Assembly (NCBI GenBank): GCA_021793155.1
Contig: JAJYTF010000007.1
Coordinates: 102,575 to 166,574, forward strand
Reading direction: 5' to 3'
Length of the DNA stretch: 64,000 nucleotides
Origin: Pseudomonadota bacterium
Lineage (GTDB): Bacteria > Pseudomonadota > Alphaproteobacteria > Rhodospirillales > Magnetospirillaceae
The notes beneath the pieces were generated by a model. The model made no database searches, had not been told where the DNA came from, and saw only the letters and a list, made by a program, of their open reading frames with translations. Positions 8,400 to 25,491 of the stretch are shown here, piece after piece. How positions within the stretch are numbered: position 1 is the first letter of the stretch; each line of letters starts with the position of its first letter. The translations under genes and the position numbers were made by a program.

Positions 8400-8972
8400 A
8401 TGCTGGCCGGTCCTTCGGTCTCGATCGGGCCATTGGTCCCCAATGACTTCGCGCCAATGTTCCGGTGGAGCAACGATATCGAAGCCGCACGTTTCAACGG
8501 AACCTATCGCCCCGTCGACTGGGTCGCCCATAAAGCTTGGTGCGACAATGTGGGCCGCGATCCGAACCGCGTGGTCTTCGCCATCCGGCGGCACAACGAC
8601 CCCGCACTGGTCGGCTATCTCGAACTCGTCAACATCAATCCGGTGCACCGCTCGGCCCAGCTCGGCATCAGGGTCGGCGAGGAGATCGACCGCGGCCATG
8701 GCATCGGCCGCGAAGCGCTTCGCCTGGTCCTCCATTACGGCTGGAACCAGCTCAACTTGAACCGGCTCTATCTTACGACCTTCAAGCATAACGAACGAGC
8801 CATCCGGGCCTTCACCGCCGCCGGATTCCGTCGCGAGGGACTGCTGCGCCGCGCCGAGTTCATCGACGGCGGGTGGGTCGATGTCGTCCTCATGGCGGCG
8901 CTGCGGCCGCGCACCAAGGCGGAGCGGTGGACCCAGGCCGCGCAACTGGCGGCAGCGGAGATCAGGGGGTGA
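8400..8972 (+). CDS. GNAT-family N-acetyltransferase (RimJ/RimL-like)
   Basis: A 190-residue acetyltransferase of the RimJ/RimL/SpeG-like GNAT group. Visible features are the N-terminal VSIGPLVPNDFAPMFRWSND block, the acetyl-CoA-binding region around HRSAQLGIRVGEEIDRGHGIGRE (the R/Q-x-x-G-x-G/A loop is RGHGIG) and the C-terminal NERAIRAFTAAGFRREGLLRR block. The frame is open back to a TTG at 8340, but ATG 8400 is preferred because GGGAAAG precedes it and the fold begins there. It stands alone between a terminator and an MFS gene. Substrate unknown. Confidence 0.85.
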   Translation: MLAGPSVSIGPLVPNDFAPMFRWSNDIEAARFNGTYRPVDWVAHKAWCDNVGRDPNRVVFAIRRHNDPALVGYLELVNINPVHRSAQLGIRVGEEIDRGHGIGREALRLVLHYGWNQLNLNRLYLTTFKHNERAIRAFTAAGFRREGLLRRAEFIDGGWVDVVLMAALRPRTKAERWTQAAQLAAAEIRG

Positions 8973-9072
8973 TTCCCGGCAGGGAAGCAAAACCGATGCT
9001 TGCCAGACACCGCCGATGATGCCGTCATAGGACGTGACGGCAGGAAGCCGGATCCATCGGGGGGGAGGAGCG

Positions 9073-10368
9073 ATGGCCGCGGTCCAGAATCGCCGCGCCA
9101 AGGTCATGACCGTGCTGCGCGTGGCCGGCGGCAATTTCCTGGAAATGTACGATTTCATGGTGTTCGGCTATTACGCCTCGGGCATCGCGCGGACTTATTT
9201 TCCGAGCGAAAGTGAATTCGCCTCGTTGATGCTGTCGCTGATGACCTTTGGGGCGGGGTTTCTGATGCGCCCTCTGGGCGCCATCCTCCTCGGGGCCTAT
9301 GTCGACCACCATGGCCGACGCCGCGGCCTGCTATTGACCCTGGGATTGATGTCGGTGGGCACCCTCGGCATCGCGGTCACGCCGGGATATGCCAGCATCG
9401 GCCTTGCCGCCCCTGTGCTGGTGGTGGCCGGACGGCTGCTGCAGGGATTCTCGGCCGGCGTCGAACTGGGGGGTGTATCAGTCTATCTGGCGGAAATTGC
9501 CACATCGGGCCGCAGGGGGTTTTACGTCTCGTGGCAATCCGCGAGCCAGCAGGTGGCCGTCGTATTCGCTGCTTTCCTGGGCGTCACGCTGGCATCAGCG
9601 TTGCCGCCCGAGCAGATGGCCGACTGGGGTTGGCGGATCCCGATCCTGGCCGGCTGCCTGATCATTCCGGTTGTGTTCATGCTGCGCCGGGCATTGGCGG
9701 AGACCCAAGAATTCCTGGCCCGCCGCCAACACCCGACGGCCCGCGAGGTCTTGCGCTCGGTCGCGGTGAACTGGCGACTGGTGGCAATCGGCCTGTTGAT
9801 GGTGACCATGACCACGGTGTCGTTCTATATGATCACCGCGTTCACCCCCACTTTCGGCAAGTCGGCGCTGAACCTGGCCGCCACCGACAATCTGCTCGTC
9901 ACCCTCTGTGTCGGCCTGTCCAACCTGTTCTGGCTGCCGGTCATGGGCACCCTGGCCGACAGGCTGGGGCGTCGACCGCCGCTTGTCTTCTTCGCCGGGC
10001 TGGCGCTGCTCACCGCCTATCCGGCCATGGCCTGGCTGGCCGGCCAACCTTCGTTTCCACGCCTGCTCGCGGTCGAGCTGTGGCTGTCGTTCCTCTATGC
10101 CGGCTACAATGGAGCAATGGTCGTCTGCCTGATCGAGATCATGCCTCCGCAAGTACGCACCGCCGGCTTCTCCATGGCCTACAGCCTGGCAACAGCCATA
10201 TTCGGCGGCTTCACGCCGGCCATCTGCAGCTATTTGATCCACCGCACCGGCAACCCGGCGATGCCGGGACTATGGCTGTCCTTCGCCGCCCTGTGTGGCC
10301 TTGCCGCCGCTTTCGCCCTAGGTCGCCGGCCGGAAGCGAAACCGATCGCGGCCGAATTCCCCGGCTGA
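9073..10368 (+). CDS. MFS transporter, citrate/tricarballylate (metabolite:H+ symporter) type
   Basis: A 431-residue, twelve-helix major facilitator of the metabolite:H+ symporter group. NFLEMYDFMVFGYYASGI at the first helix and LMRPLGAILLGAYVDHHGRRRG (the loop 2-3 signature) resemble CitA/TcuC citrate and tricarballylate carriers. RLLQGFSAGVELGGVSVYLAE is the helix 4-5 signature of the same group. The start is ATG 9073, with GGGGGAGGAG just upstream; the frame is open to 9034. Citrate as substrate is a family-based guess. The gene is followed 23 bases later by the convergent VOC gene. Confidence 0.85.
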   Translation: MAAVQNRRAKVMTVLRVAGGNFLEMYDFMVFGYYASGIARTYFPSESEFASLMLSLMTFGAGFLMRPLGAILLGAYVDHHGRRRGLLLTLGLMSVGTLGIAVTPGYASIGLAAPVLVVAGRLLQGFSAGVELGGVSVYLAEIATSGRRGFYVSWQSASQQVAVVFAAFLGVTLASALPPEQMADWGWRIPILAGCLIIPVVFMLRRALAETQEFLARRQHPTAREVLRSVAVNWRLVAIGLLMVTMTTVSFYMITAFTPTFGKSALNLAATDNLLVTLCVGLSNLFWLPVMGTLADRLGRRPPLVFFAGLALLTAYPAMAWLAGQPSFPRLLAVELWLSFLYAGYNGAMVVCLIEIMPPQVRTAGFSMAYSLATAIFGGFTPAICSYLIHRTGNPAMPGLWLSFAALCGLAAAFALGRRPEAKPIAAEFPG

Positions 10369-10391
10369 CCGGGCAGGTGGTGAAAACCGCC

Positions 10392-10865
10392 TCAGCCGCA
10401 GAAACTGGGCTCCGCCTCGGCGTATTGCGACAGTTCAACGATGGCACCGTCCGGATCGCGCAGATAAGCCATCCGTTTTCCCCCACGCACGATATCGGCG
10501 GGAACCTCGATAACCTCGGCGCCAATGCCAAGCAGTTCACGCGCAGCTTCAAGGATGGGGTCGATCGCCTTGACCCGAATGGCGAAATGCCTCAGCCCCG
10601 GCGTAGCTGGCACCGTGTTGGCGTCCAATGGCCGATCGTCGCGCCCCAGATATTGCAGCAATTCGACCCGGCAACCACCGCCGGCGCTTTGCAGGATCAC
10701 GCAGCGGGCGCGAGCTTCCGGCAAGCCGGTGAGGCGCTGGAACCATGCGCCTTCCAGGACCCGGTCCATCAATGGCTGCAAGCCCAGGCAATCGCTATAG
10801 AATGTGAGCGAGCGCCGCATATCGAGGACTACGACGTTGACGTGGTCGAGGTGAAGGTCGGTCAT
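10392..10865 (-). CDS. VOC (glyoxalase/bleomycin-resistance superfamily) protein
   Basis: A 157-residue protein with two beta-alpha-beta-beta-beta modules of the vicinal-oxygen-chelate fold. HLDHVNVVVLDMRRSLTFYSDCLGL opens the first module and GLRHFAIRVKAIDPI opens the second; the last strand is AYLRDPDGAIVELSQY, with Glu as the probable last metal ligand. His in HLDHV, Glu in CRVELLQY, His in LRHFAI and this Glu are the likely metal ligands. The frame is open to 10952. ATG 10865 (MTDLHLDHV) is chosen because it starts just before the fold; ATG 10895 is possible. Substrate unknown. Confidence 0.8.
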   Translation of the reverse strand: MTDLHLDHVNVVVLDMRRSLTFYSDCLGLQPLMDRVLEGAWFQRLTGLPEARARCVILQSAGGGCRVELLQYLGRDDRPLDANTVPATPGLRHFAIRVKAIDPILEAARELLGIGAEVIEVPADIVRGGKRMAYLRDPDGAIVELSQYAEAEPSFCG

Positions 10866-12249: not shown

Positions 12250-13128
12250 ATGAGTGATGCCGTTCCATTTGCGGCCGCGCCAAGGCGGGAAGGGAGCGAT
12301 CAAGCCGGACCGGTCCGACTCGGCAGCGCCGAGCACTTGGCGTTGTTCAGCCGCATGCTGCTCGACACCTTCAATCCCTATGACCCGGAAGCGATCCGGT
12401 GGCCCCAACTCGAAGAGGCGGCACAGACCCGCCTGCGCACCCTGCCGATCTGGGACATCGCGGTGGATACCGAGGAAAAGGCCAGTCGACGGGTCAAGGC
12501 CTATGCCGAGACCATCGCCGATCCGCTGCTCCGTCAAGCAACGGAACTCAACGCCTTCGAGGAAGGGCGGCATAAGGCCGTTCTGGCCAGGCTTGTCCGG
12601 GCCTACGGCATAGAGATCGCTCAGCCGGCGCGCTGTCCCCCGCCGCGCGACGCAGAATGGGCGTTCATGGTTACCGGCTACAGCGAATGCATCGACAGCT
12701 TCTTCGCCTTCGGTTTGTTCGAACTCGCGAAACGATCCGGCTATTTTCCGGTCGCACTGGTCGACACCTTCGAGCCGGTAATCCAGGAGGAGGGCCGCCA
12801 CATCACCTTCTTCGTCAACTGGGTTGCCTGGCACCAGCGCAACCTTCCCTGGTGGCGTCGGCCGCTGTTCCGGGTCAAAATCCTGGCCGTATGGGTCTTC
12901 CTGCTATGGGAACGCATGGCCATCGCCCGCGAAATGGGCGGCCCGCCGTCGGACAACAATTTTACCCTGACCGGCAGCAAGTCGGTCGGCGCCGAGGTGA
13001 CTCCGGGCGCGCTTCTGGATGTCTGCCTGGCAGAGAACGAGCGGCGGCTCGGCCTATACGATCGCCGGCTGGTCCGGCCGCGTTTCGTGCCGGGAATGGT
13101 CCGCCTGCTCCGGCGTTTTCTGGCGTGA
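12250..13128 (+). CDS. Ferritin-like di-iron protein, neighbour of hpnL
   Basis: A 292-residue protein with a four-helix ferritin-like core. Two ExxH motifs, E105-G-R-H108 and E181-G-R-H184, with further carboxylates Glu75/76, Glu146 and Glu175, give the pattern of a carboxylate-bridged di-iron site. A hydrophobic stretch (KILAVWVFLLWERMAIA, about residues 209-225) could be a membrane anchor. Start ATG 12250 has AAGGAGGG upstream, a very strong ribosome-binding site. It lies six bases before hpnL and is surely co-transcribed, which suggests a role in lipid or hopanoid chemistry, for example an oxygenase or desaturase-type step. That role is inference; no enzyme activity can be assigned. Confidence 0.72.
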   Translation: MSDAVPFAAAPRREGSDQAGPVRLGSAEHLALFSRMLLDTFNPYDPEAIRWPQLEEAAQTRLRTLPIWDIAVDTEEKASRRVKAYAETIADPLLRQATELNAFEEGRHKAVLARLVRAYGIEIAQPARCPPPRDAEWAFMVTGYSECIDSFFAFGLFELAKRSGYFPVALVDTFEPVIQEEGRHITFFVNWVAWHQRNLPWWRRPLFRVKILAVWVFLLWERMAIAREMGGPPSDNNFTLTGSKSVGAEVTPGALLDVCLAENERRLGLYDRRLVRPRFVPGMVRLLRRFLA

Positions 13129-13134: not shown

Positions 13135-14154
13135 ATGCGACGCTTCACCATCCTGGCTGGCATCGGCGGACTGCTGGCGGGCACGGTGGTCATCGCCTAT
13201 TTCGGCTTCGGCCAGGTCACGCGAGCACTGCTGGCCATCGGTTGGGGTGGTTTCGCCGCCATCCTCGTCTATCGCCTGGCGGCAACCTCGCTCCTCGGTT
13301 TTTGCTGGTCGCTGTTAGCCAGGCCGCCGGTGCGGCGTGCCGCCTTCGTCTGGGGCCGCCTGATCCGCGACTCGGCGGCCGAAGTCTTGCCGCTGTCGCA
13401 GGTCGGCGGGTTCGTCATGGGCGCCAGGGCGGCCACGCTGATGGGTGTTTCCGGAACCGTCGCCATCGCCTCGACCGTCGTCGACGTCACGCTCGAGGCC
13501 CTTGGCCAGATGGGCTACACGGCCCTCGGCCTGAGCATCATGGCCGCAAGGCAGCCGACCAATCGCTTCATCGCCTGGACGATTTTCGGCCTTTGCCTGG
13601 CGGTGTTGGCGCTTGTCGCCTTCGCCGCCATGCAGCGGCATGGTTTCGGCCGGTTGGGGCGCCTGCTGGCGCTGATCGCCAGCCACTGCTTCAGCGACGC
13701 GGTCGGCCGCCTGGCCCCGGTCGGTGAGGCGTTGCGCGACATCTGGAACCGCAGCGGCGCCTTGTGGCTGGCCGGGTTGCTGCATTTCGGCGCGTGGATC
13801 GTCAGCGGCGTCGAGGCTTGGCTCGCCTTGCATTTCATGGGGCTTGGAATCGGCTTGGCCTCCGTGCTTGCCATTGAGAGCCTGCTGCATGCCATCCGCA
13901 GCGTCGCTTTTGCCGTGCCCAATGCCCTGGGTGTCCAGGAAGGCGCCTACATTCTGATCGGCGGCATGTTCGGCCTGCCGCCCGAGGCGGCTCTCGCCCT
14001 GTCGCTACTGAAACGGTCCCGCGACCTGGTCATCGGCGCGCCGGCGCTGCTGAGCTGGCAGCTCGCGGAAAGCGGGCGTCTGCTGGCCGAACGTTCGGCC
14101 GCGCTCGACCCGGTGAAGGCCGGGTCGCCTCGGCGCGCAAAACCGTTTCTGTAA
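13135..14154 (+). CDS. hpnL: HpnL-type membrane protein (hopanoid-associated lysylphosphatidylglycerol synthase TM family)
   Basis: A 339-residue protein with about eight membrane helices. It belongs to the UPF0104/LPG-synthase TM superfamily, in the shorter HpnL branch often linked to hopanoid genes: the N-terminal [22 protein letters not shown], the central [18 protein letters not shown] and the C-terminal [21 protein letters not shown] are typical. It probably moves a lipid across the inner membrane. No squalene-hopene cyclase or other hpn gene is in the window, so the hopanoid link rests on family resemblance. It is paired with the ferritin-like gene. No SD is obvious in the six-base gap, consistent with coupling. 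Confidence 0.78.
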
Positions 14155-14273
14155 TTGTCGCCCTGGTTATATATTCACAATTATCCTGTGGGATAGGTGG
14201 CGGCCGCGGGGGCACAGCCAAAGCCAGCGCTAATCACATCTGCTATGTATCCATAGCATTGGGGGCAACGATT

Positions 14274-15965
14274 ATGACGTGGCTTGCCAATATCAGCCTT
14301 TTGAAGAAAGTCATCCTCCCCGTCGGCGTCTTGCTTATATTGCTGGCGATCGTTACAGCCAACGCTTACACGGGGCTGCGGCATCTTGCCGCGGCAGGGA
14401 ACCACGTTGCGGAAGTCAGCGCCAGACGGCTGGAAGCCTCGCTGACGATGGCTGCAGCGGTCAACGACGCGGCGGTCAACGAGAGGAACGTCATCCTCGA
14501 ATACAGCCAGGACAAGTTGAAGGCCTATCTGACCGACTATAAGTCGGCCATTGCCGAGGCGATGCATGCCGCGGACCAGCTCCTCGCACTGTCCGACACG
14601 CCCGAGCAGAGGGCGTTCAACCAGGCCATCAAGGACAAGCTGCTCGCCTATGACCGGATCACCCAAAAGGTGCTGGAAGCCTCCGTCGGCCATGATCACG
14701 AAGCGGCATTCAACGCCTCCTCGACCGAAGGCCGCAACGCCCGCCTTGCGCTCAACGACCAGCTGACCCAGCGGGTCGAAAGCAGCCGGGGGGAAATGGA
14801 CGATGCGACGCAAGAGATCGCCGGCGAGTTGCGCCGCGTGGTCATCCTGCTGATTTCCATCACCGTCGCCGGCGGCATCGCCTCGGCGGGATTCCTCTGG
14901 TGGATGATGACCACCAATGTGGCACGGCCGTTCGCCGGGATCACCGGCGCAATGGAACGCCTGGCCAACGGCGATCTGGATGCGCCCGTCGAAGGCACCG
15001 CCCGCAAGGACGAGGTGGGCTCGCTGGCCCGATCCCTCCAGGTGTTCAAGGACAGCGCCATCGAACGGCGCCGCATGGAGGAGCGCGAACGGGCCGCGGT
15101 CGAGGCCCGTGACGTCCGACGGCAGAGAATCGACGAGGCGACGAAACGGTTCGACGCCCGTATCAGTGCCATGCTGGCCAAGATCAATACCGCCGTACAG
15201 CATCTGCATCAGGCGGCCGACGCCCTGTCCGCCAATGCCGAGGAAACCAAGCGGGAGAGCGCCGCCGTGGCGACTGCCAGCCACCAGGCCACCGCCAATG
15301 TCGAGACCGTGTCGTCGGCCGGAACGCAATTGACCTCCTCGATTCAGGAAATTTCCCGCCAGGTCGAGCAATCTTCGGCGACCGCACGCTCGGCGGCGGA
15401 GGAAGCGGAGGCGGCAAATCGCAAGATCGACGGCCTGGCCGCGGCGGCGCAGAAGATCGGTGAGGTGGTCAGCCTGATCAACGACATCGCCTCGCAGACC
15501 AATCTGCTGGCGCTGAACGCCACCATCGAAAGCGCCCGGGCCGGCGACGCGGGCAAAGGCTTCGCCGTGGTGGCGAACGAAGTGAAGCACCTGGCCGGAC
15601 AGACCGCTCGCGCCACCGACGAGATCGCGCAGCAGATCGCCAATGTGCAGGACGAGACACGGGCTGCCGTGGCCGCCATCGGCGGCATCAGTCACACCAT
15701 CGTCGGCATAAACGAACTGGCCACCACCATTGCCGGAGCAGTCGAAGAGCAGGGCGCCGCCACCGCCGAAATCGCCCGCAACGTCGAGCAGGCCTCGCAA
15801 GGCACCCGGACGGTCGCCACGAACATCGCCAACGTCGCCCGAGCCGCGGCGGAAACCGGCCGCATGGCCCAGGACGTGTTCGCCTCGGCGAACGACCTTC
15901 TGGCCGAAAGCAAGACCCTGGAAGGTGAGGTCGAGCAATTCCTGAAAGAGGTGCGGGAAGCCTGA
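14274..15965 (+). CDS. Methyl-accepting chemotaxis protein
   Basis: A 563-residue chemoreceptor with classical layout: first membrane helix at about residues 13-33, a periplasmic four-helix-bundle ligand domain (about 34-190, rich in Ala and charged residues as in TarH-type sensors), second helix at about 192-215, HAMP ([21 protein letters not shown]), then the signalling domain with [20 protein letters not shown] at the tip. No C-terminal pentapeptide or CZB domain is seen. The ATG at 14274, with GGGGG eight bases before it, is preferred to TTG 14259. It stands alone. The ligand is unknown. Confidence 0.93.
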
Positions 15966-15970
15966 CGTAG

Positions 15971-15988
15971 CGCCCCTTCAGGGGGGCG
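15971..15988 (+). terminator. Short GC hairpin after the chemoreceptor gene
   Basis: CGCCCC pairs with GGGGCG across TTCAGG, five bases past the stop codon. There is no T run after it, so it may be a weak or Rho-assisted terminator or only a 3' end stabiliser. Confidence 0.35.
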
Positions 15989-16148
15989 TATGTGAGTTGG
16001 GGACCGGCCCGGCAGCCGCCCCGTCACGGATGAAAAACCCTTCGCTGCTTGCGATGACGGTATTTTCCTGCCCCCCGGCCGCAAAGGATAAATCCGGCAC
16101 CCGCATTGCATCCGAACAGAGCATCACGCTTTCCACGGAGAAGCCGGG

Positions 16149-16931
16149 TTGACTGGACTGAGCGTCGCCGACCTGCGGGGTTTGTGGTTCCGATCCCTCA
16201 TTTCCTGGCCGGACGGCCGTCGCGACGAAACCACCTTCGTCGCCTGGCTGCAGGGGCCGAACCTCTATGCCGATTTGCGCCAGCCGGCGGGGCGCCCCGA
16301 TTTCTCGGGAATTGAGTGCCTGCGCGATCTTGCCCCGCGCCACCTTGCCTGGCTGGCCCGGCAGGAGGGTTTCGCCGGCATCCTCGAACGCCGTAGCGAA
16401 CACTTCATCTGGCAGAGGATGATCGATTTCCAGCCTGCCGGCCCACTACCCGACGCCGCGCGGCTGCGCTTCGACGGCGGCATTCTGATCGAAGAAGGGC
16501 AGCATCTGCCTTATGTCGAGCACTGGCATCGCCGCCGGCGGTCGGCCGAGGACCGCCGCACCGCGCTACGCCTCGGCGCGCCGGACGATGGACGCGAGGC
16601 TATCCTGCTTCGCGATGGCGACTGGTTCCTGTTCGCCAGGGACCGCGCGCATTGCCTGCCGGATGGGCGATCTCTGGCCGAATGCCTTGCCGCAGCGGGC
16701 GACCTGCGGAAAGCGCAGGACATGGTGGACTGCGAGATCTCGCTGGGGCGGGTGGGCGAAGGGATCTGGACCATCAGCCGATCGACCCTGCCGTTCCGCG
16801 AGGGACGTTCGCTCGGTTTCGCGACCACCGGCAAAGGCGTAACGACAGCCGAACCGGATGCACGGGGAAGGCCAACCACACGCCGATGGAACGTTGTCTC
16901 GGCCGAAGGAATCTGGCCATCTCGCCTATGA
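16149..16931 (+). CDS. Conserved-looking protein of unknown function
   Basis: A 260-residue soluble protein that I do not recognise. It has no signal peptide or membrane segment, many Trp and Arg residues, and reads as alternating beta strands: LWFRSLISWPDG, TFVAWLQGPNLYADLRQPAG, HFIWQRMIDFQP and AILLRDGDWFLFARDR. Two similar halves (an ISWPDG...DLR block and a ILLRDGDWFLFARD block) hint at a duplicated beta-barrel, but this is only an impression. The start is the TTG at 16149 with GGAG upstream; no better start lies close by. Codon use matches the surroundings, so it is probably a real gene. The sigma-54 promoter region of the next operon follows it. Confidence 0.6.
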   Translation: MTGLSVADLRGLWFRSLISWPDGRRDETTFVAWLQGPNLYADLRQPAGRPDFSGIECLRDLAPRHLAWLARQEGFAGILERRSEHFIWQRMIDFQPAGPLPDAARLRFDGGILIEEGQHLPYVEHWHRRRRSAEDRRTALRLGAPDDGREAILLRDGDWFLFARDRAHCLPDGRSLAECLAAAGDLRKAQDMVDCEISLGRVGEGIWTISRSTLPFREGRSLGFATTGKGVTTAEPDARGRPTTRRWNVVSAEGIWPSRL

Positions 16932-17040
16932 TTTAGGCATCCACATTTGGTCGCCCATATTTTACTCACACGCCCACTAATTAAGCAGCAATTGAGGTCG
17001 ATCACGGCAATGGCACCAGGGGTTTCGCCACTCCCGGTTC

Positions 17041-17055
17041 TGGCATGGGGCTTGC
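17041..17055 (+). promoter_or_regulatory. Sigma-54 (-24/-12) promoter of the transporter/creatininase/glnT operon
   Basis: CTGGCATGGGGCTTGC matches the sigma-54 consensus YTGGCACG-N4-TTGC, with the invariant GG and GC separated by exactly ten bases. Transcription should begin about 12 bases further on, near 17067, leaving a leader of about 40 bases before the first gene at 17109. Sigma-54 promoters need an activator; NtrC would fit the nitrogen-related genes downstream, but no activator site was recognised in the AT-richer DNA at 16930-17035. Confidence 0.75.
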
Positions 17056-17108
17056 GTTAGCGTATTACGCATTCTGTTTTCAGTAATACTCTACGCAAGG
17101 AGTTTGCC

Positions 17109-18086
17109 ATGGGTAGGAAGGGAAAATTCGGCCGGATCCTCGGCGCTGTCGTCGGTCTTGCCTGCCTGGCGGCGCTTCCGGCGAAGGCCGCGCCGATCAA
17201 GATCGGATATAGCGATTGGCCGGGCTGGGTGGCCTGGCAGGTCGCCATCGACAAGGGCTGGCTGCAAAAGGCCGGCGTCGATGCGGATTTCGAGTGGTTC
17301 GATTATTCGGCGTCGATGGACGCATTCGGCGCCGGCAAGATCGACGGCGTGCTGGTGACCAACGGCGATGCCTTGGTGATGGGCGGCGGCGGCACCAAGA
17401 GCCTGATGATCATGCTGACCGACTATTCGGACGGCAACGACATGATCGTCGCCAAGCCGGGCATCAAGAGCTTGAAGGAGTTGAAGGGAAAGAAGATCGG
17501 CGTCGAGGTCGGCCTGGTCGAGCACCTGCTGCTGCTGGACGGTCTGCAGAAGGCCGGGCTTGGCGAGAAGGACGTCACACTGGTCAACACCAAGACCAAC
17601 GACACGCCACAGGTCCTGGCGTCCGGACAAGTGGACGCCATCGGCGCCTGGCAGCCCAATTCGGGGATGGCGATGAAATCCCTTCCGGGCGCCAAGCCGG
17701 TCTTCACCTCGGCCCAGGAACCCGGCTTGATCTACGACGTGCTGGTGGTCAATCCCGAATCACTGAAGGCCCACAAAGCCGAGTGGAAGAAGCTGATGGG
17801 CGTGTGGGACCAGGTGGTCCATTACATCGACGACCCCAAGACCCAGGACGACGCCGTCAGGATCATGGCCGCCCGCGTCGGCCTGACGCCCGAGGCCTAC
17901 AAGCCGTTGCTGAAGGGCACCCACCTGATCGACCTGACCGAGGGCAAGAAGGTCTTCCAGAAGGCCGGCGGTTTGCATTCGCTCTACGGTTCCTCGGAAA
18001 TTGCCAATGATTTCAATGTCAAGAATGAGGTCTACAAGGAAAAACAGGACATCGACAACTATATCGACGCCTCTCTGATGCAGTAG
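17109..18086 (+). CDS. ABC transporter substrate-binding protein, NMT1/SsuA type
   Basis: A 325-residue periplasmic binding protein. A Sec signal peptide covers about residues 1-28 (basic start, hydrophobic core, PAKAA cleavage site). The mature protein begins PIKIGYSDWPGWVAWQVA and has the NMT1/taurine/nitrate-binding fold, with DYSDGNDMIVAKPGIKSLKELKGKKIGVE as the hinge region. Members of this group bind small nitrogen or sulfur compounds. Its specificity cannot be read here. It is the first gene after the sigma-54 promoter and is followed by its permease and ATPase, a hydrolase and a glutamine synthetase, which points to an organic nitrogen compound. SD AAGGAG at 17097-17102. Confidence 0.88.
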   Translation: MGRKGKFGRILGAVVGLACLAALPAKAAPIKIGYSDWPGWVAWQVAIDKGWLQKAGVDADFEWFDYSASMDAFGAGKIDGVLVTNGDALVMGGGGTKSLMIMLTDYSDGNDMIVAKPGIKSLKELKGKKIGVEVGLVEHLLLLDGLQKAGLGEKDVTLVNTKTNDTPQVLASGQVDAIGAWQPNSGMAMKSLPGAKPVFTSAQEPGLIYDVLVVNPESLKAHKAEWKKLMGVWDQVVHYIDDPKTQDDAVRIMAARVGLTPEAYKPLLKGTHLIDLTEGKKVFQKAGGLHSLYGSSEIANDFNVKNEVYKEKQDIDNYIDASLMQ

Positions 18087-18090
18087 CACC

Positions 18091-18172
18091 CGTCATCCCG
18101 AGTGGCAAAGAGGGGTCTCCTTGTCCAAACGAGATCCCTCCGCCCTTCGGTCGCCAGGATGACAAGACCCCA
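18091..18172. repeat. REP-like palindrome between transporter genes
   Basis: An imperfect inverted repeat with outer ends GTCATCC and AGGATGACA and inner GGGGTCTCC/GAGATCCC arms, of the same type as the elements at 54835-54908 and 59424-59514. It separates the highly expressed binding-protein gene from the permease and could stabilise the upstream mRNA, as REP elements do elsewhere. Confidence 0.6.
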
Positions 18173-18197
18173 CGGCAGTGAATGAGAGGATTTCATC

Positions 18198-19139
18198 TTG
18201 CTGAAGCAGCTTTCATCCCGAGAGAAGCGGGTCCTGGGGATCTTCTCGTTCGTCCTGCCTCTCCTGATCTGGTGCGCGGTCAGCTATCTTCCCTTCGTCT
18301 GGCATCCGCAAATGCTGATCACCGAGGCGGGCGACGTCGATTATTTCCAGCCGGGCATGCGGGTCGGCCGCGATGTCTTCGAAAGCGAATATGAAGCCGC
18401 CAAATCGGCCGGCAAAGCGGTGCCGGCCGGCGTGCCGGCCAACCCCATCTACCTGCCGGCGCCCGACCAGGTGTTCACCGCCTTCTACACGGCGTTCACC
18501 ATGCCGCCGGAAGCGCGCGACGCCCCCAGGCTGCACCAGAGCCTGTGGCACAGCGTCCAGGTCATTTTCTGTGGCTTCGCCATTTCCTCGGCTATCGGGG
18601 TGCCGCTCGGCATCCTTTGCGGCGCCGTCGCCCGGGTGTCGCGCCTCTCCGAGCCCTTCATCGAGTTCTTCCGCTACCTGCCGGCGCCTGCCTTCGGCGC
18701 GCTGGCGGTGGCCATACTCGGCATCTACGACGGGCCGAAAGTGGCCATCATCGTCATCGGCACCCTGTTCCAGCAGGTGCTGATCGTCGCCAACACCACC
18801 CGCAAGCTGGACTTCGCACTGATCGAGGCGGCGCTCACCCTGGGCACCAGAAATGCCAAGCTGCTGTCGCGGGTGGTCATCCCCGGGATCCTGCCCGACC
18901 TCTATCGCGACCAGCGCATCCTGCTGGGTTGGGCCTGGACCTACCTGATCGTCGCCGAGCTGATCGGCACCACCTCGGGCATCACCTGGTTTATCACCCA
19001 GCAGGCCCGCTACCAGCATTTCCCCAACGTCTACGCCGCCATCTTCCTCATCGGCATCATCGGGCTGGGCACCGACATGGTACTGGCCGCGCTGGGCCGC
19101 CGCCTGTTCCCCTGGGACCGCCCGACTGCGAAAGGCTGA
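18198..19139 (+). CDS. ABC transporter permease (NrtB/TauC/SsuC type)
   Basis: A 313-residue inner-membrane permease. After the first helix (about residues 15-33) there is an unusually long soluble insertion (residues about 38-105, containing [18 protein letters not shown]) before the core of five helices. The EAA loop is [24 protein letters not shown]. Such an insertion is seen in permeases of 'urea-carboxylase-related' transporter sets; this is from memory of the family. The start is a TTG at 18198, chosen because AGAGGA lies seven bases upstream. The gene ends two bases before the ATPase gene. Confidence 0.88.
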
Positions 19140-19141
19140 GC

Positions 19142-20065
19142 ATGGATCAGATCGTCAACGCGCCAAAGGCCCTGCCGTCCTACCTGGACCAAACCCCAGC
19201 CGTCAGGGACCGCTTCGGCCGCCTGAAGAACCGCGAGGTCATCCTCAGGGTCGACGGCCTGGGCAAGACCTTCTCGTCACGCCAAGGCACGACGGTGGCG
19301 CTGCGCAACATCAGCTTCCAAACCCATCGGCGGGAGTTCCTGGTCATCGTCGGCCCGTCCGGCTGCGGCAAGTCCACCTTGATCCGCATCCTGGCGGGAC
19401 TCGACATGCAGACCGGCGGACAGGTTCTGCTGGAGGGCAAACCGGTGGCCGGGCCGGGCAGGGACCGCGGCATGGTGTTCCAGGGCTACACCCTGTTCCC
19501 CTGGCTGACGGTCAAGAAGAACGTCATGTTCGGCCTGGAGGTCAACGGCGCGGGCACATCGCAGGCCGAGAGCGAGGCGCTGCAATGGCTGCAGCTGATC
19601 GGCCTGGAGAAATTCACCGAGGCCTATCCGCACCAGCTGTCGGGCGGCATGAAACAGCGGGTGGCCATCGCCCGCGCACTCGCCACCCAGCCGCGCATTC
19701 TGCTGATGGACGAGCCGTTCGGCGCCCTCGACGCCCAGACGCGCTGCCGCATGCAGGCCCATCTGCTGGAAATCTGGCGAAAGATCGACGTCACCATAGT
19801 CTTCATCACCCACGACCTCGACGAAGCGATCTATCTCGCCGACCGCATCCTGGTCATGAAGGCCCATCCGGGCGAGGTGCAGGAACTGATCGAGGTGCCC
19901 GTCCCTCGGCCGCGCGACCCTGACCAGTTCATCTCCGACAGCTTCCTGGCCACCAAGGCGCGGCTCGAGGAGATGATCTACTCCGCCCACGGTGAAGCCG
20001 AAGAGGAAGAAGAAGCCTATCCCATGGTCGCTCGCCTGACCGCCGTCGGCGACGATGTGGAGTAG
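19142..20065 (+). CDS. ABC transporter ATP-binding protein (NrtD/SsuB type)
   Basis: A 307-residue ATPase with Walker [11 protein letters not shown]-loop [11 protein letters not shown], signature LSGGMKQR, Walker [14 protein letters not shown] and switch His in ITHDLDEA. An N-terminal extension of about 35 residues and a C-terminal tail rich in Glu are longer than usual for the family. The ATG at 19142 is two bases after the permease stop, and the creatininase-like gene follows after three bases, so the three are translated from one message. It powers uptake of the substrate caught by the binding protein at 17109. Confidence 0.92.
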
Positions 20066-20068
20066 GTC

Positions 20069-20854
20069 ATGCAGTGGTCGACACAGAGCTGGACCGAACT
20101 GTCCGGCGACCTACCCGCCGCCCGTTGGAGTGCGATCCTGCCGGTGGGGGCCACCGAACAGCACGGACCGCACCTGGGTTGCGGCATGGATTTCGTGCTG
20201 GCCGACCGGCTCTGCCGAGCGGTGGCCGAACGCACCGGCGTGCCCATGCTGCCGGCCTTGCCTTACGGCTGTTCGCTTGGCCACAGCCGGCGTTGGCCGG
20301 GAACGTTGGCGGTGCAGCCGGTCAGCCTGATCCAGTTCGTCAAGGATATCGGCGACTGGGCCCATCACGGTGGAGTGCGCCGTCTGTTCATCGTCAACAC
20401 CCATGTCACCAACGCCGCTCCATTGCGTTGCGCCCTGGAGATGCTGCGGGCCGAGCACGACGACATGATGGTCGCCCTGGTCAATTCGGCGACCATCTCC
20501 GACCGGGTCCGCGCCGCCCATTTCGCCGACGGCGAGGACTGGCATGCCAACGATGCCGAAACCTCACTAATGCTGGCGGTAGCCCCGGAAATTGCGCGGC
20601 CCGACCGCCTGCCCGAGGCGGACGATCCCGACCGCACCGGAGACCTGGTGTTCTCCCACCCGGTCAACCGGACCAGCCGCAACGGCGTTACCGGCAACCC
20701 CAGCCGCGCCACCGCCGACAAGGGGCGCCGGCTCTTCGACTGGATGGTCGAGGACCTGAGCGCCCTGGTGCGCAAGGGGCAGGCGGAGGAGCCGCCCCTC
20801 GACCACTCCTATTTCCAATCCTGCAACACCCCCGACACCGAGAGGACGACATGA
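20069..20854 (+). CDS. Creatininase-family amidohydrolase, divergent
   Basis: A 261-residue enzyme of the creatininase (creatinine amidohydrolase) fold, which opens cyclic or linear amides with a two-metal centre. The metal site is visible: ATEQHG gives Glu30 and His32, MDF gives Asp41, and HANDAETS gives a further His and Glu. The usual NGHGGN loop is replaced by NTHVTN (residues 110-115): the central His is kept but the glycines are gone, so the pocket probably differs from creatininase proper. It shares an ATGA overlap with glnT. Position between a transporter and a glutamine synthetase suggests it frees ammonia or an amine from the imported compound. Confidence 0.82.
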
Positions 20855-22236
20855 CGATCATCGAGCCCACCATGCCGGCGACCACCGAACAGATCAGGTT
20901 CCTGCAGGAGCAATTGCGCGCCAAGGGGGTGAAGTACTGCATCGGCGCCTATGTCGACATCCACGGCGCGCCCAAGGGCAAGGTCGTTCCCATCGACCAT
21001 CTGGAGCAGATGGCGCAAGGTTCGGAGCGCTATACCGGCTATGCGCTGGATGGGCTGGGTCAAGCCCCCAATGACGACGAGATCGTCTCGCTGCCCGACC
21101 TTGGCCGGCTGATCCAGCTGCCCTGGGAGCCCAAGATCGCCTGGATACCGGCCGACAACGGATTCCAAGGCAAGCCTTATGCGCTGAATACCCGAGTCGC
21201 CCTGAAGAACGTCCTGGCCCGCGCCGAACGGCTGGGCTTCGGCTTCAACCTGGGCATCGAATGCGAGATCTATCTGCTGAAGCAGAACGCCGACGGCAGC
21301 CTGGCCGTGCCCGACCCCGACGACAAACTGGCCAAGCCCTGCTACGACGTTCGCGGGTTTCTCAACAGCTTCGGCTGGCTGGATAAAGTAGCAAGTTGCA
21401 TCAACGACTTAGGATGGGATCTTTATTCTTTCGATCACGAGGACGGGAACGGTCAATACGAGTTCGACTTCCGCTATGCCGACGCGCTGACCATGTGCGA
21501 CCGCTTCATCTTCTTCCGCACCATGGCCAAGCACTATGCCAAGGAGCAAGGGTTGCTGGCCACCATGATGCCCAAGCCCTTCGCCGACAAGACCGGCACC
21601 GGCGCCCATTTCAATATGTCGCTGTCCTCGCTGGAGACTGGCGCCAACGCCTTTGCCTGCGATGCCTCCGAGGATCCGCGCGGGCTTGGCTTGACCCAAC
21701 TCGGCTATTGGTTCATCGGCGGCATCCTGAAACACGGAAAAGCGCTGTGCGCCGCCTTCGCGCCGACGGTCAACAGCTACAAGCGCCTGGTCCGCCAAGG
21801 GTCGATGGGCACGTTCAGCTGGGCTCCGGTGTTCAATTCCTACGGCTCCAACAACCGTACCAATTCGGTGCGCGTGCCGGCCGGCGGCGGCCGCTGCGAA
21901 TCGCGCAACGCCGACGGCGCGCTCAACCCTTATCTGGCGGCGACCCTGGCCTTGGCCGCCGGCCTCGACGGCATCGAGAACCGCATAGACCCCGGCGAAT
22001 CCAACGAGGACAACCTTTACACCATCTCGGAGGAGCAGCGGCGGGCTCGTGGCATCGAGTTCCTGCCACAGACCCTGCAAGAGGCGGTAGCCGCTTTCGC
22101 CGCCGACCCGCTGGTCGAACAGGCTCTTGGAAAGGGCTTGCGGGACGAGTTCATCGCCTATAAGACCGCCGAGTGGGAGGCGTACCACCTGTCGGTCAGC
22201 CAGTGGGAGATCGAGCGGTACAGCCATCTTTTCTAG
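20851..22236 (+). CDS. glnT: Type III-like glutamine synthetase (GlnT)
   Basis: A 461-residue glutamine synthetase of the GlnT group found in rhizobia and relatives. GIECEIYLL carries active-site glutamates, [12 protein letters not shown] is the ATP/glutamate-binding block, and [36 protein letters not shown] is the C-terminal catalytic block, given here only in part. It ligates ammonia, or in some relatives an amine, to glutamate using ATP. The tail ends [10 protein letters not shown] with no clear adenylylation Tyr loop. It is the last enzyme of the sigma-54 operon. GlnT enzymes are usually secondary to GlnA, and a gamma-glutamyl-amide ligase role is possible. Confidence 0.88.
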
Positions 22237-22325
22237 CGCCAAGGCCGGTGGCTCAAGGTCATTGGCGCCTTTGCGAGCGCGGCGACGCCATCCAGAGCGG
22301 CGCCCGCTGCCATCGGGGGCAAGGA

Positions 22326-22805
22326 ATGTCGGAGAAGCACGGCGGCGCCCGGCAAGTAAGTCGAATCAGCATGTCCCTGCCCGAGGAGTTGCTGGCGGAA
22401 CTTGACGCCATGGTGGCCGACCGGGGCTTCGCCAGCCGCTCGCAGGCCATCACCGACATGTTGCACCAGTCCCTGGTGGAGCATCGCCGCCGGTTGGGCG
22501 ACGACGTGATGGTCGGCATCATCACCCTGTTCTACGACAACACCGTCAGCGGCCTGCAGAAGCGCCTGGCAGACCTGCAGTTCACCCATATCGACGAGGT
22601 GATCAGTTCGCTGCACGTCCACCTGATTCACAACCAGACCATGGAGGCCATCCTGGTCCAGGGGCCGGCCCGCAAGCTACAGGCCATTTCCGACGAGATG
22701 ATCACCTGCCGCGGCGTCATCTCCGGCAAGATGCACCTGATCGCCGCGCTGATTCCGCCGCTGCATCCCTTCCACGACGGAACCAGTCCCGAAGGAGCCG
22801 AGTAG
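22326..22805 (+). CDS. NikR-like ribbon-helix-helix regulator lacking two nickel ligands
   Basis: A 159-residue regulator with an N-terminal ribbon-helix-helix DNA-binding domain (SRISMSLPEELLAELD, then SRSQAITDML) and a C-terminal ACT-like NikR domain (SSLHVHLIH). Aligning to E. coli NikR without gaps, the nickel ligands His87 and His89 are present as His97 and His99, but His76 is Phe86 and Cys95 is Thr105. It may therefore bind another metal, or none. It starts 90 bases after glnT on the same strand, with a close AAGGA. Autoregulation or control of the neighbouring operon is plausible but unproven. Confidence 0.82.
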   Translation: MSEKHGGARQVSRISMSLPEELLAELDAMVADRGFASRSQAITDMLHQSLVEHRRRLGDDVMVGIITLFYDNTVSGLQKRLADLQFTHIDEVISSLHVHLIHNQTMEAILVQGPARKLQAISDEMITCRGVISGKMHLIAALIPPLHPFHDGTSPEGAE

Positions 22806-22809
22806 GGCG

Positions 22810-23505
22810 TTACAGCATCTGCGCCAGCAGCGGCGCGGCCAGCACGTTCACCAGTCCGACCAGGGCCATCACCAGGCCGGCAACCGATCCTTCCTCGCGG
22901 CCGATGCCATGGGCCCGGGCGACACCGGCACCATGGGCGCCCATGCCGAACAGGGCGCCGCGGGCAAGGGCGGAGTGCAACGGCAGAACCCGCAGGATGG
23001 TTTCGCCGAAACCGGCGCCGAAGACACCGGTGAGGGCGACGAACACCGCCGTCAGGTCGGGCACACCACCGATTTGGCCGGATACCGTCATGGCGAACGG
23101 GGTGCTGATCGAACGCGGCAACAGGCTCAGCCGCAGGCTGCCGCTGAGTCCCAGCAATTCGGCCAGCCCCCAGGCCGAAGCCATCGCGGTCATACTGCCG
23201 ACGACCACCCCGGCGGCCAGCGCCGGCCAATGCCGGCGGATCAGTCCCCGCTGTTCCCAGATGGGAACAGCGAAGGCGACGGTCGCCGGTCCCAGTAACG
23301 CGACCAGCCAATGGGTTTCGCGGATATAGTCACGATAGCTCTCATGGAGCGCCAGGGCCAGGCCGATCAGGGCGGCGGGAGCGAGGACCAGCGGGCTGGA
23401 CCACCAGCGCATCAGCCGGCGATGCAGGTGCTTGGCCACGAGATACGAGGCGATGGTGGCGGCGGACCAGAACGCCACCTGCAAAAGCGGATCACTCAAT
23501 GACAT
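22810..23505 (-). CDS. lrgB: LrgB/CidB-family membrane protein
   Basis: A 231-residue membrane protein with about seven helices. The family core LLGPATVAFAVPIWEQRGLIRRHW, the PRSISTPFAMTVSGQIGG block and the FGMGAHGAGVARAHGIG block are all present. LrgB acts with LrgA in a holin/antiholin-like or metabolite (pyruvate, glycolate) export system. It starts inside the end of lrgA with a 14-base overlap. The frame is open to 23535, but ATG 23505 is the family start. It converges with the NikR-like gene, stop to stop, across only four bases. Confidence 0.9.
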   Translation of the reverse strand: MSLSDPLLQVAFWSAATIASYLVAKHLHRRLMRWWSSPLVLAPAALIGLALALHESYRDYIRETHWLVALLGPATVAFAVPIWEQRGLIRRHWPALAAGVVVGSMTAMASAWGLAELLGLSGSLRLSLLPRSISTPFAMTVSGQIGGVPDLTAVFVALTGVFGAGFGETILRVLPLHSALARGALFGMGAHGAGVARAHGIGREEGSVAGLVMALVGLVNVLAAPLLAQML

Positions 23506-23914
23506 GACCGTCCGCCTCCAGCCGCCCCATTGCACGGCAGCACAGGTCGACCACCACGGCCGTCACCCCCATGACCACCACGGTACCGCCCAGGATCACC
23601 GCCACGATCTTCAGGCCAAGGATGCCCAGGAATTCAGGATGATCGAGGATGGCCAGCACGGCGGGGATGAAAAACAGCAGCAACTCGGCGATGAACCAGT
23701 TGGCGCCGCGGCGCAGGCTGCCCTGGCCGAGCCACCCGCTGGCCAGCAACGCCAGGACGACCGACATGCCGATGATGCCGCCCGGGATGGGCAGGCCAGT
23801 CCAACGGGCCAAGGCTTCACCCAGCAACCAGAAGGCGAACAGCAGGACGATCTGAGCCGGCCGGTTGGACCGGAGGCTGCGGCGGCCGGGGATGATGATT
23901 CTTCGTAAGTCCAT
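23492..23914 (-). CDS. lrgA: LrgA/CidA-family membrane protein
   Basis: A 140-residue protein with four membrane helices: AQIVLLFAFWLLGEALARW, PGGIIGMSVVLALLASG, FIAELLLFFIPAVLAIL and IVAVILGGTVVVMGVTAVVV. The loop LPIPGGIIGM is the family hallmark. It forms the small partner of LrgB, and in other bacteria the pair controls murein hydrolase activity or exports three-carbon acids. Its basic N terminus (residues 1-20) is slightly longer than usual. It is the promoter-proximal gene of lrgAB; its own regulator (LytSR) is not in the window. Confidence 0.9.
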   Translation of the reverse strand: MDLRRIIIPGRRSLRSNRPAQIVLLFAFWLLGEALARWTGLPIPGGIIGMSVVLALLASGWLGQGSLRRGANWFIAELLLFFIPAVLAILDHPEFLGILGLKIVAVILGGTVVVMGVTAVVVDLCCRAMGRLEADGHVIE

Positions 23915-24327
23915 GATGGCATTCCTTGCGTCAGAACCGTATGCCGCCGCCGATCATGAGCAAAATGAATTATTCGAATATATATCAGTCCACATTGGAA
24001 TATCCGATGAGATCCGCATCGTCTTGCGGTCGCTGGAGCCGAGCGTCATCCCGTGAGCGGTGCCCGATTCGTAGAGATTGACTATTTCTGGCAGTTTGCT
24101 TGAATACCCCTAAAGAGTGTGGGAATGGACTCCTTGATGAGACGCATCCGTCCTCGGACGACATGTAGCCAACCACCTTTCCCGAGCCCCAAATCCTGGC
24201 CGATGGCCACGAGCGCGACAGCGCCGTTACCCATGCGGCACGCAGACAGACCAGCGGAACCACCGGGACGGCCAAAATAGATTGATCATCCCGTGCAACA
24301 GGCTTCCAGTGTCTGGGGGAGGGTTCT
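23915..24327. other. 413-base divergent intergenic region
   Basis: This gap between lrgA (minus) and the ETR1-like kinase (plus) holds no convincing gene. The part at 23955-24000 is clearly AT-richer than the surroundings (TATTCGAATATATATCAG) and suits promoters. A GTCATCC motif at 24048 is the remains of a REP-type end without its partner. The kinase's ribosome-binding site GGGGAGGG lies at the right edge. Confidence 0.5.
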
Positions 24328-25491
24328 GTGCTCAACATGATCCATGAATTCTTATCAACGGCGGCATATTTGCCACACGGATATTGTATAGGCTGGTGGT
24401 CTCCCCTCGTCTATACGTTTGTTTTTAGTGATATACTGACATTTGTTTCGTATTTTTCGATGCCTATCGCCATGCTATATTTTGCGCGGCGACGGAAAGA
24501 CTTTCCGTACCCTTGGCTTCTCTGGCTTTCCGCTGCATTCATAATGGCCTGTGGGTCGACGCATCTTATGGATGTCGTCGTCCTGTGGTATCCCCTCTAT
24601 GGGCTGAGCGCCCTCACCAAGGCGCTGACCGCGATCGTTTCGGTTGCCAGCGCAGTCATGCTCTGGCCGCTGATACCGCAGGCCTTGAGATTGCCCAGCG
24701 CGGAGCAATTGCGTCACGCCAACGAGGAGCTTCAGGCCGAAATCGCGGAACGGAGGCGCGTGGAAGAGGCGCTCCGCCTTCGCACGGCTGAATTGAGCGC
24801 GGCCAACCAGGAATTGGAGGCCTTTGCCTACGCCGTGTCCCACGATTTGCGGGCGCCCCTGCGTGCGATGCGGGGCTTTTCAAAAATATTGGAAGACGAG
24901 TTCTCTGCCGAACTGCAGCCCGAGGCAAGGGAATGCGTGGAACATATCGCGACGGCTGGCAGAAACATGGGGGAGTTGGTCGACGGCCTCCTGGTCCTGT
25001 CGCGCGTCACCAGGGGTGAACTCAAGCGGGAGGCAGTGGACCTGTCGCAGATCGCCCACCGCGTCAGGACGGAACTGGAGCTGTCGGAACCGACGCGATC
25101 GGTGACATGGGACATCGAGCCCGGCCTCGTCATGCAAGGCGACAGCCGCATGCTCGAATCGGTCATGCGTAATCTCCTCGAAAATGCCTGGAAATACACC
25201 TCCTCGACGGCGGCGCCGGTGATCCGCGTGCGGGCCTCGACCCATGACAACCAGCGCTTCATCAGCATCGAAGACAACGGCGCCGGGTTCGACATGGCCT
25301 ATGCCGATCAATTGTTCCAGCCTTTCCGCCGGCTTCACCGGCAGGATGAATTTCCGGGCCTGGGGATCGGCCTGGCGACCGTCCTGCGCATCATCCGCCG
25401 CCATGGCGGGACCCTCCTGGCCGATGCGGCGCCGGACCGGGGGGCCTCGTTCCGCTTCACCCTGCCGGAACCCGAATTGGGAGCAGCATGA
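24328..25491 (+). CDS. Histidine kinase with ethylene-receptor (ETR1-like) membrane sensor
   Basis: A 387-residue sensor kinase. Its three N-terminal membrane helices reproduce the copper/ethylene-binding domain of plant ETR1: SD at Asp35, YFS at Tyr42, and ACGSTH with Cys75 and His79. Spacing is identical to ETR1 Asp25, Tyr32, Cys65 and His69. A coiled coil (about 125-165) leads directly to HisKA with YAVSHDLRAPL (His172) and an ATPase domain with N-box MRNLLENAWKY, DNGAGF and GLGIGLAT. There is no GAF or receiver domain. GTG 24328 and ATG 24337 are both possible starts. An ATGATG junction overlaps the next gene, an Rcp1-like receiver, its probable partner. Similar bacterial proteins are known in cyanobacteria and Azospirillum. 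Confidence 0.9.
   Translation: MLNMIHEFLSTAAYLPHGYCIGWWSPLVYTFVFSDILTFVSYFSMPIAMLYFARRRKDFPYPWLLWLSAAFIMACGSTHLMDVVVLWYPLYGLSALTKALTAIVSVASAVMLWPLIPQALRLPSAEQLRHANEELQAEIAERRRVEEALRLRTAELSAANQELEAFAYAVSHDLRAPLRAMRGFSKILEDEFSAELQPEARECVEHIATAGRNMGELVDGLLVLSRVTRGELKREAVDLSQIAHRVRTELELSEPTRSVTWDIEPGLVMQGDSRMLESVMRNLLENAWKYTSSTAAPVIRVRASTHDNQRFISIEDNGAGFDMAYADQLFQPFRRLHRQDEFPGLGIGLATVLRIIRRHGGTLLADAAPDRGASFRFTLPEPELGAA

Follow-up and report, generated by a model that had tools for sequence, protein, structure and literature searches.

Which nitrogen compound is served by a sigma-54-type operon that joins an importer to two enzymes, and what controls it? The question is raised by a stretch of 64,000 nucleotides from contig JAJYTF010000007.1 (assembly GCA_021793155.1, a Pseudomonadota bacterium of the Magnetospirillaceae), which as a whole is called the window in the following. 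The operon encodes a periplasmic solute-binding protein (SBP), the permease and ATPase of an ATP-binding cassette (ABC) transporter, a creatininase-family metallohydrolase (CRE), a glutamate-amine ligase related to type III glutamine synthetases (GS), and, as the sixth gene, a NikR-like regulator (Table 1). A first-pass annotation had read the first five genes as co-directional, sigma-54-driven genes for the import and enzymatic use of an organic nitrogen compound, and this description was upheld. It had left the substrate open between creatinine, hydantoins, guanidine, and formamides; here, the context and riboswitches of related loci favor guanidine or a guanidino compound, and creatinine drops out as a plain substrate. 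The operon is likely to be a module for the assimilation of guanidine, or of a guanidino compound, under the control of nitrogen limitation and of a NikR-derived repressor that does not respond to nickel. The gene set, the promoter motif, an inverted-repeat box over the predicted start site, the loss of nickel ligands, the association of box and regulator gene, and the guanidine context could all be read from the sequences.

Relatives were collected by similarity of CRE. Among 297 genomes of the order, only the window's own gave a match at E 1e-40. The class (385 genomes) contained 107 with a match at E 1e-15, of which one at 69% and four at 39 to 43% stood out besides the window; the phylum (398 genomes) contained 5 at E 1e-32, including the window, with the rest at 65 to 71% identity; and a collection of named genomes contributed 18 loci at 64 to 77%. 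All 409 plasmid records found with CRE stayed below 60%, and those among the matches listed (the best 40 of 409) below 40%. The 22 operon loci considered here are the window, four further genomes, and 17 of the 18 loci of the named collection. Left out were a 4-kb fragment cut inside CRE (L060), with the order CRE, GS, NikR-like gene, UAAP1, UAAP2, and the start of a carboxylase gene, and the four loci at 39 to 43%, referred to as outer pairs. The order of the five genes, a search for which had been proposed in the first-pass annotation, is conserved in 16 of the 22 loci, and the six-gene order on one strand is present in 14, window included; the NikR-like gene stands divergently in front of the operon in L031 and is missing in L048. 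Carriers of CRE belong to Methylobacillus, Pseudomethylobacillus, Hyphomicrobium, Aquabacterium, Thiobacillus, Hydrogenovibrio, and Thiomicrorhabdus or are metagenome-assembled genomes (MAGs) named at the order or class level. High identity across classes together with a patchy presence suggests horizontal spread.

The connection to guanidine comes from the neighborhood of these relatives. Clustering of open reading frames (ORFs) revealed that a protein of about 1,200 amino acids, an amidase, and proteins of about 240 amino acids recur beside the operon. Their NCBIfam names are urea carboxylase (1771 bits; cutoff, 1303.85), allophanate hydrolase, and UAAP1/UAAP2, the last two corresponding to CgdAB. 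The current names, as given in PMC12186494 and PMC11410670, are guanidine carboxylase, AtzF, and carboxyguanidine deiminase. At the residue aligned to position 1330 of the K. lactis enzyme, which is Asn there, all 12 carboxylases with a readable motif possess Asp (11 loci and the window's own genome; the carboxylase of L048 gave no motif match and is outside the 12), and this exchange is described in PMC11410670 as the mark of guanidine over urea carboxylase. With the guanidine-type Asp in 12 of 12 readable enzymes, urea was rejected as their substrate. Twelve of the 22 retrieved loci also encode the carboxylase (L031, L042, L045 to L048, L050, L052, L054 to L056, and L058), and in L045, L046, L047, L050, and L056 its genes follow the NikR-like gene directly on the same strand. 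At the genome level, 18 of the 21 relatives reach the urea/guanidine carboxylase cutoff and G1045 and G1039 hold split pieces; together with the window's genome, this gives 21 of 22 (19 of 22 without the pieces) compared to 32 of 299 in a sample of the phylum, in which the 32 (E 1e-300, all above the cutoff) include three operon genomes. The Fisher P value for 21/22 versus 32/299 is 1e-17, with kinship and the slightly looser count ignored. In the window's genome the carboxylase set is located on another contig, in the order guanidine-I aptamer, TIGR03427 SBP, permease, ATPase, guanidine-II aptamer, UAAP1, UAAP2, carboxylase, and allophanate hydrolase.

The 22 loci were also scanned for riboswitches, the window from position 14000 to 24000. 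Guanidine-I or guanidine-II aptamers reached the gathering score in 8 loci (L031, L046, L047, L048, L052, L053, L054, and L055) and in the fragment L060, exceeding it by less than 1 bit in L046, L047, and L060. The sole match in the window, HgcC, was far below the gathering score and was rejected. L048 has a −24/−12 site with 12 of 12 consensus positions (6850), followed by a guanidine-I aptamer (6925-7034, 95 bits) and then by the same five genes. This locus has no box, and its genome, which is a MAG, gave no match to NikR.

A few loci carry further genes beside the operon. In L057 (5143-8691), a fatty acid desaturase-like protein, a metallo-beta-lactamase (MBL) lactonase-like protein, a TIM-barrel match below the Pfam cutoff, and an EamA permease are encoded in front of it. 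L058 contains a box with one mismatch (4829-4856) before the desaturase-like gene, and L048 a guanidine-II aptamer at that place. The desaturase-like cluster is possibly an oxygenase route for substituted guanidines. Downstream of the guanidine-I aptamer in L053 (4213-6253, minus strand), a gene for a 2-oxoglutarate dioxygenase is followed by one for a protein without a Pfam match; this pair in Hyphomicrobium may be mgdH/mgdL-like.

Evaluation of the control region begins with the promoter. GG at 17042-17043 and GC at 17054-17055 are separated by 10 bases, which confirms the sigma-54-type promoter motif of the first-pass annotation; such promoters have the form GG-N10-GC with a flanking consensus. 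The site agrees with the consensus in 10 of 12 positions; when the 300 bases upstream were dinucleotide-shuffled 300 times, 1.3% of the shuffles scored at least as high (P 0.013), and 15 of 19 homologous upstream regions, window included, possess a match of at least 10/12. L042, L053, and L059 were left out of these 19 due to their different transporter. An NtrC site with P < 0.05 was found in 8 of the 19, and no sigma-70-type promoter was found in the window from 16000 to 24000.

The box, which the first-pass annotation did not mention, nor the NikR-like gene, consists of two perfect 7-base arms 14 bases apart between the promoter and the start codon. It spans the predicted start site, placed 12 bases 3′ of the C of the −12 element. 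With up to two mismatches it was found in 18 of the 19 upstream regions. None or almost none of 300 shuffles scored as well in 17 of them, and the P value for L057 was 0.017. In the 14 upstream regions with a box and a promoter of at least 10/12, the distance from the −12 C to the start of the box is 5 to 17 positions. The window's genome has one perfect copy, one site with one mismatch, and two with two mismatches; a genome-wide scan alone is of little use because the reversed control pattern matches equally often, and the evidence for the box is positional. All 18 operon genomes with a NikR-like gene have the box and none of the 4 without it does (L042, L048, L053, and L059; Fisher P 1.4e-4, kinship ignored). 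The operator of NikR in Escherichia coli, GTATGA-N16-TCATAC, is built likewise, and the box of L041 has exactly this form. In that locus (7822-10579), CRE and GS lack an accompanying transporter and point away from the NikR-like gene, from which the GTATGAC-type box separates them. The NikR-like protein of L041 shows RITIS in the DNA-contacting strand, resembling intact NikR proteins (RVTIS, RFTIS, and RLTIS); 15 others with boxes of the GTATTAC or GTAATAC type have RIS-x-S, and two of the L057/L058 type have RTSAS. This covariation of box and protein motif, a single case, is suggestive but does not amount to proof. The UAAP1 gene of L056 is itself preceded by a further box, with two mismatches (12822-12849), hinting that the NikR-like protein may control the carboxylase genes there too.

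The regulator itself combines a ribbon-helix-helix (RHH) domain (PF01402) with NikR_C (PF08753) and matches the NikR of P. horikoshii with E 6e-27. It passes the NCBIfam NikR models NF003381 (118.1; cutoff, 105) and NF002815 (90.6; cutoff, 83) and misses NF002169, NF001884, and TIGR02793 (84.7; cutoff, 175.45). The four nickel ligands of NikR are His-His-His-Cys; the aligned positions are F86, H97, H99, and T105. Among 18 NikR-like proteins linked to the operon or to the carboxylase, none has the full set: Cys is present in 0, the first His in 3, and both His residues of the HVH motif in 15. Four NikR proteins found elsewhere, in the window's genome and in those of L051, L052, and L055, keep 4 of 4 ligands, and the linked and intact proteins form separate branches with support of 100/100 in a tree rooted at the midpoint. 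Both HVH histidines are lost in L088 and L089, the genomes of which retain the box. L057 and L058 belong to genomes in which the NikR-like gene stands among the carboxylase genes and its product has neither HVH histidine, so that at least there a nickel role is difficult to maintain. Because the nickel site is lost, the NikR-like protein probably does not sense nickel. By analogy with L048, in which a guanidine aptamer takes the place of the box, its ligand may be guanidine.

The two enzymes were compared with characterized families. The metal-site motifs of PF02633 are intact in CRE (EQHGPH, Asp, NxH, and HxxxxET; EQHGPQ in L041). The Tyr-Glu pair of the creatininase motif NGHYEN, residues 121 and 122, is replaced by Val-Thr (NTHVTN), and every one of the 22 operon CREs, like the fragment L060, has HVTN or HVSN; a chain with Gln instead of the Glu of NGHYEN exists among the compared structures. 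CRE misses the creatininase cutoff (TIGR04448, 116.7 bits; cutoff, 235) and the equivalog cutoff of MftE. With neither this cutoff nor the Tyr-Glu pair, creatinine was rejected as the plain substrate. GS passes the model for type III glutamate-ammonia ligases (TIGR03105, 642.5 bits; cutoff, 469.6). Its top structures are glutamate-methylamine ligases (9qur and 7cql, 386 and 336 bits), compared to 237 bits for an ammonia-using GS; 7cql, deposited as a type III ligase, is a gamma-glutamylmethylamide synthetase (GMAS). At the site of the Asp in DGSS, the ammonium site of ammonia-using enzymes, the window has Thr (YTGYA) and both GMAS structures have Ala. YTGYA is present in 19 of the 21 operon GS covering the site and TGAA in L053 and L059, and L044 does not cover it. 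Capture of released ammonia by GS, as claimed in the first-pass annotation, is unlikely because the ammonium-site Asp is missing and because of the likeness to methylamide synthetases.

CRE and GS are encoded next to each other in 22 of 22 loci, with GS first in L053 and L059, where it is 50% like that of the window. In L042 the pair is located inside a guanidine carboxylase operon, and in L053 it is divergent from a guanidine-I-led transporter; both loci have canonical TIGR03427 importers (574 and 515 bits). Since the unit persists with another transporter, CRE and GS can be placed as accessory enzymes of guanidine use.

From these data we infer the direction of regulation, the ligand, the transporter substrate, and both enzyme reactions. 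Under nitrogen limitation, sigma-54 RNA polymerase would initiate at about 17067, and the NikR-like protein on the GTATTAC-N14-GTAATAC box over this start would repress initiation until guanidine or its product appears. Guanidine, or a guanidino compound of small size, would enter through the ABC transporter. GS and CRE would work on it together: GS would most likely ligate glutamate to the nitrogen of an amine or of guanidine, not to free ammonium, and CRE would cleave a C-N bond by hydrolysis, either in the acyl-guanidine so formed or in a related one. The remainder would, in most carriers, pass through the guanidine carboxylase pathway, in the window's genome from the other contig. The operon supplies a concrete candidate regulator, a NikR-family protein without the full nickel site, with a likely operator and a relative that has a guanidine aptamer instead of the box, and it links two enzymes, CRE and GS, to guanidine use. 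Such proteins, currently annotated as creatininase family, type III glutamine synthetase, or nickel-responsive regulator, would be re-annotated.

An extended version, in which the operon represents a third route of guanidine breakdown and contains the first protein switch for guanidine, is unlikely when taken as a whole. GS would make gamma-glutamylguanidine with the ATP otherwise spent on glutamine, CRE would split this product into glutamine and urea, and the NikR-derived repressor would sense guanidine or the intermediate. The genome G998, with all six genes, urease, and no carboxylase or arginase-family protein found, would run the route alone and might be the one genome in which CRE and GS could suffice. 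Its operon is complete and its urease scores 970 bits; a search for the arginase family, the family relevant to the nickel guanidinase (GdmH) route, in 5 of the 22 operon genomes gave no match in G998 and one each in G000, G576, G768, and G1006, at the family level. Urease alpha above the cutoff is present in 10 of the 22 genomes and absent from 12, the window's own included; among these, G1035 shows a urease fragment at a contig end. Since only 10 of 22 pass the cutoff, urea as a product would not suit every carrier.

Instead of guanidine itself, a larger or substituted compound such as methylguanidine, guanylurea, a creatinine-like molecule, or another acyl-guanidine may be the substrate, with CRE freeing guanidine or opening a ring, the guanidine passing on to the carboxylase, and GS ligating a by-product amine, for example, methylamine. 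This is possible but somewhat doubtful. Creatinine is a cyclic acyl-guanidine and CRE a member of the creatininase family, albeit below the creatininase cutoff. GS scores best against methylamine ligases, and the window's genome already possesses a canonical TIGR03427 transporter. Methylobacillus, Pseudomethylobacillus, and Hyphomicrobium are generally known as methylotrophs, but Hydrogenovibrio and Thiomicrorhabdus, generally known as sulfur autotrophs, carry CRE and GS as well. 2-Oxoglutarate dioxygenases adjoin the pair in L042 and L053, and in PMC12508155 a guanidine carboxylase operon is shown to encode a dioxygenase and a lyase that demethylate methylguanidine. Nevertheless, no dioxygenase or desaturase was seen among the few ORFs scanned near the window's operon (dioxygenases were not searched in every locus), and the desaturase-like cluster is confined to 3 loci.

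The regulator could alternatively have remained a metal sensor, for nickel through an altered site or for a different metal, and thereby switch on a metal-sparing nitrogen route when urease cannot be loaded. NikR homology, the two NCBIfam cutoffs, the NikR-type operator, and HVH in 15 of 18 proteins agree with this; the carboxylase route is, by general knowledge, nickel-free, and urea metabolism has reportedly been linked to metal limitation in another bacterium (PMC5050338). The loss of Cys in 18 of 18 and of the first His in 15 of 18 proteins, and of both HVH histidines in L088/L089 despite the box, makes such a sensor quite improbable, as do the 12 genomes without urease alpha above the cutoff, the additional intact NikR in 4 of 18 genomes, and the guanidine aptamer occupying the place of the box in L048. 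Finally, an ordinary scavenging operon for an unrelated small amide, with CRE releasing ammonia, GS assimilating it, and guanidine neighbors by coincidence, would be in line with the TIGR03105 score, the sigma-54-type promoter, the outer pairs without guanidine genes, and the scanned part of the window without a guanidine riboswitch. It is hardly compatible with the excess of the carboxylase in the operon genomes, with riboswitches in 8 loci, one of them leading the same genes, and with a GS without the DGSS Asp, and is considered very improbable.

Several observations weigh against guanidine assimilation under a non-nickel repressor, the interpretation preferred here. No guanidine riboswitch was found in the other 14 of the 22 loci, among them the window (positions 14000 to 24000, E up to 1), and gca, cgdAB, and atzF were not found around the window's operon. 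In G998, no guanidine carboxylase was found genome-wide despite the complete operon. The window's SBP misses the urea-carboxylase-associated model TIGR03427 (163 bits; cutoff, 333.9), and the canonical SBP of the same genome (551 bits, other contig) is 36% like it; because that contig has the carboxylase, its own riboswitches, and a TIGR03427 transporter, the transporter of the window may have a different substrate. The outer pairs (L032 to L035; CRE at 38 to 42%, mixed neighbors) showed no guanidine riboswitch and no member of the carboxylase cluster in the loci scanned, their genomes not having been searched for the carboxylase. The CRE-GS pair may therefore predate the link to guanidine, which counts against a guanidine-only role. 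On the side of control, the −24/−12 site is weak or absent in L031, L054, L057, and L058, and no good NtrC site was found upstream in the window (best, 4 mismatches; P 0.76). Because the HVH histidines are kept in 15 of 18 proteins, some metal could still bind, and since 2 of 5 NCBIfam NikR models are passed, annotation pipelines may label the window's protein nickel-responsive. The counts are not independent, since similarity of CRE was the basis for choosing all 21 relatives, of which many are MAGs and some closely related to each other.

Known systems share parts of this arrangement. The guanidine carboxylase operons described in PMC12186494 and PMC11410670 are alike in the NMT1-type importer and in serving nitrogen assimilation, and many relatives share their association with gca, cgdAB, and atzF and several the riboswitches; unlike them, the window adds CRE and GS without adjoining carboxylase genes and has a sigma-54-type site, a NikR-like gene, and the box without a riboswitch. 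The mgdH/mgdL methylguanidine operon of Vreelandella boliviensis (PMC12508155) is likewise a guanidine carboxylase operon to which accessory enzymes for a guanidino compound have been added. There they are a dioxygenase and a lyase, whereas the window has a hydrolase of the creatininase family and a ligase resembling GlnT; neither NikR nor glutamine synthetase is a term of its main text. With NikR regulators the window's protein shares the domains and the spacing of the operator arms, but its ligand set is incomplete and it belongs to a guanidine-linked operon without a nickel transport context. GS agrees with GMAS (9qur, 7cql) in the top scores and the absent ammonium-site Asp and differs in YTGYA, where GMAS has Ala; CRE shares the metal-site motifs with creatininase and ArfB/MftE-type hydrolases (PF02633) and differs in Val-Thr and the missed equivalog cutoffs. 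No work was found that combines guanidine, riboswitch, and creatininase, and none that combines guanidine carboxylase with glutamine synthetase. NikR and urea carboxylase both occur, apart from each other, in PMC2667541, and the gene set was not found in portions of PMC7736828, PMC2864571, PMC9800807, and PMC12625717, supplementary tables of ykkC-linked genes being outside this scope. The statement in the first-pass annotation that no named pathway with exactly this set was known agrees with the literature searched, which mostly excluded subscription journals.

The six-gene, sigma-54-type operon is real as a unit in the window. Coordinates and families of the five genes (NMT1, BPD_transp_1, ABC_tran, Creatininase, and TIGR03105) turned out as first annotated, with intergenic spacings of 111, 2, 3, and −4 bases, the last being an ATGA overlap of CRE and GS. 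The NikR-like gene follows 89 bases 3′ of GS and seems to end the operon, since the next large ORF scanned, LrgB-like (22810-23535), is on the opposite strand.

Table 1. Features of the operon and its control region in the window
Feature	Position	Strand	Basis or remark
−24/−12 sigma-54-type promoter	17041..17056	+	TGGCATGGGGCTTGCG
Perfect inverted repeat GTATTAC-N14-GTAATAC (GTATTACGCATTCTGTTTTCAGTAATAC)	17062..17089	.	NikR-type operator architecture; over predicted start ~17067
SBP, periplasmic binding protein, NMT1 family (PF09084)	17109..18086	+	Family profiles
111-base gap with long hairpin	18087..18197	.	Folding versus shuffles
ABC permease (BPD_transp_1)	18198..19139	+	Family profile; TTG start assumed
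ABC ATPase (ABC_tran)	19142..20065	+	Family profile
CRE, creatininase-family metallohydrolase (PF02633)	20069..20854	+	Family profile; GS neighbor in 22/22 loci
GS, GlnT/GMAS-like glutamate-amine ligase (TIGR03105)	20851..22236	+	Without DGSS Asp
NikR-like RHH regulator, 159 aa (PF01402 + NikR_C PF08753)	22326..22805	+	Cys replaced by Thr, first His by Phe

The only large gap had been described as holding a repetitive extragenic palindromic (REP) element. A hairpin is there (z −2.1; 6 of 200 shuffles fold equally well), but three longer words from the gap occur once each in the window, and the 7-base core GGATGAC alone recurs, 23 times on both strands; a REP element was rejected on this search of the window.

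Two sensor genes flank the region on the plus strand. Upstream of the operon, 14259-15965 encodes a methyl-accepting chemotaxis protein with a 4HB sensor domain. About 1.5 kb past the operon, 24328-25491 encodes a histidine kinase whose ETR1_N domain resembles that of ethylene receptors; the ethylene-forming enzyme, one known source of guanidine, produces ethylene too.

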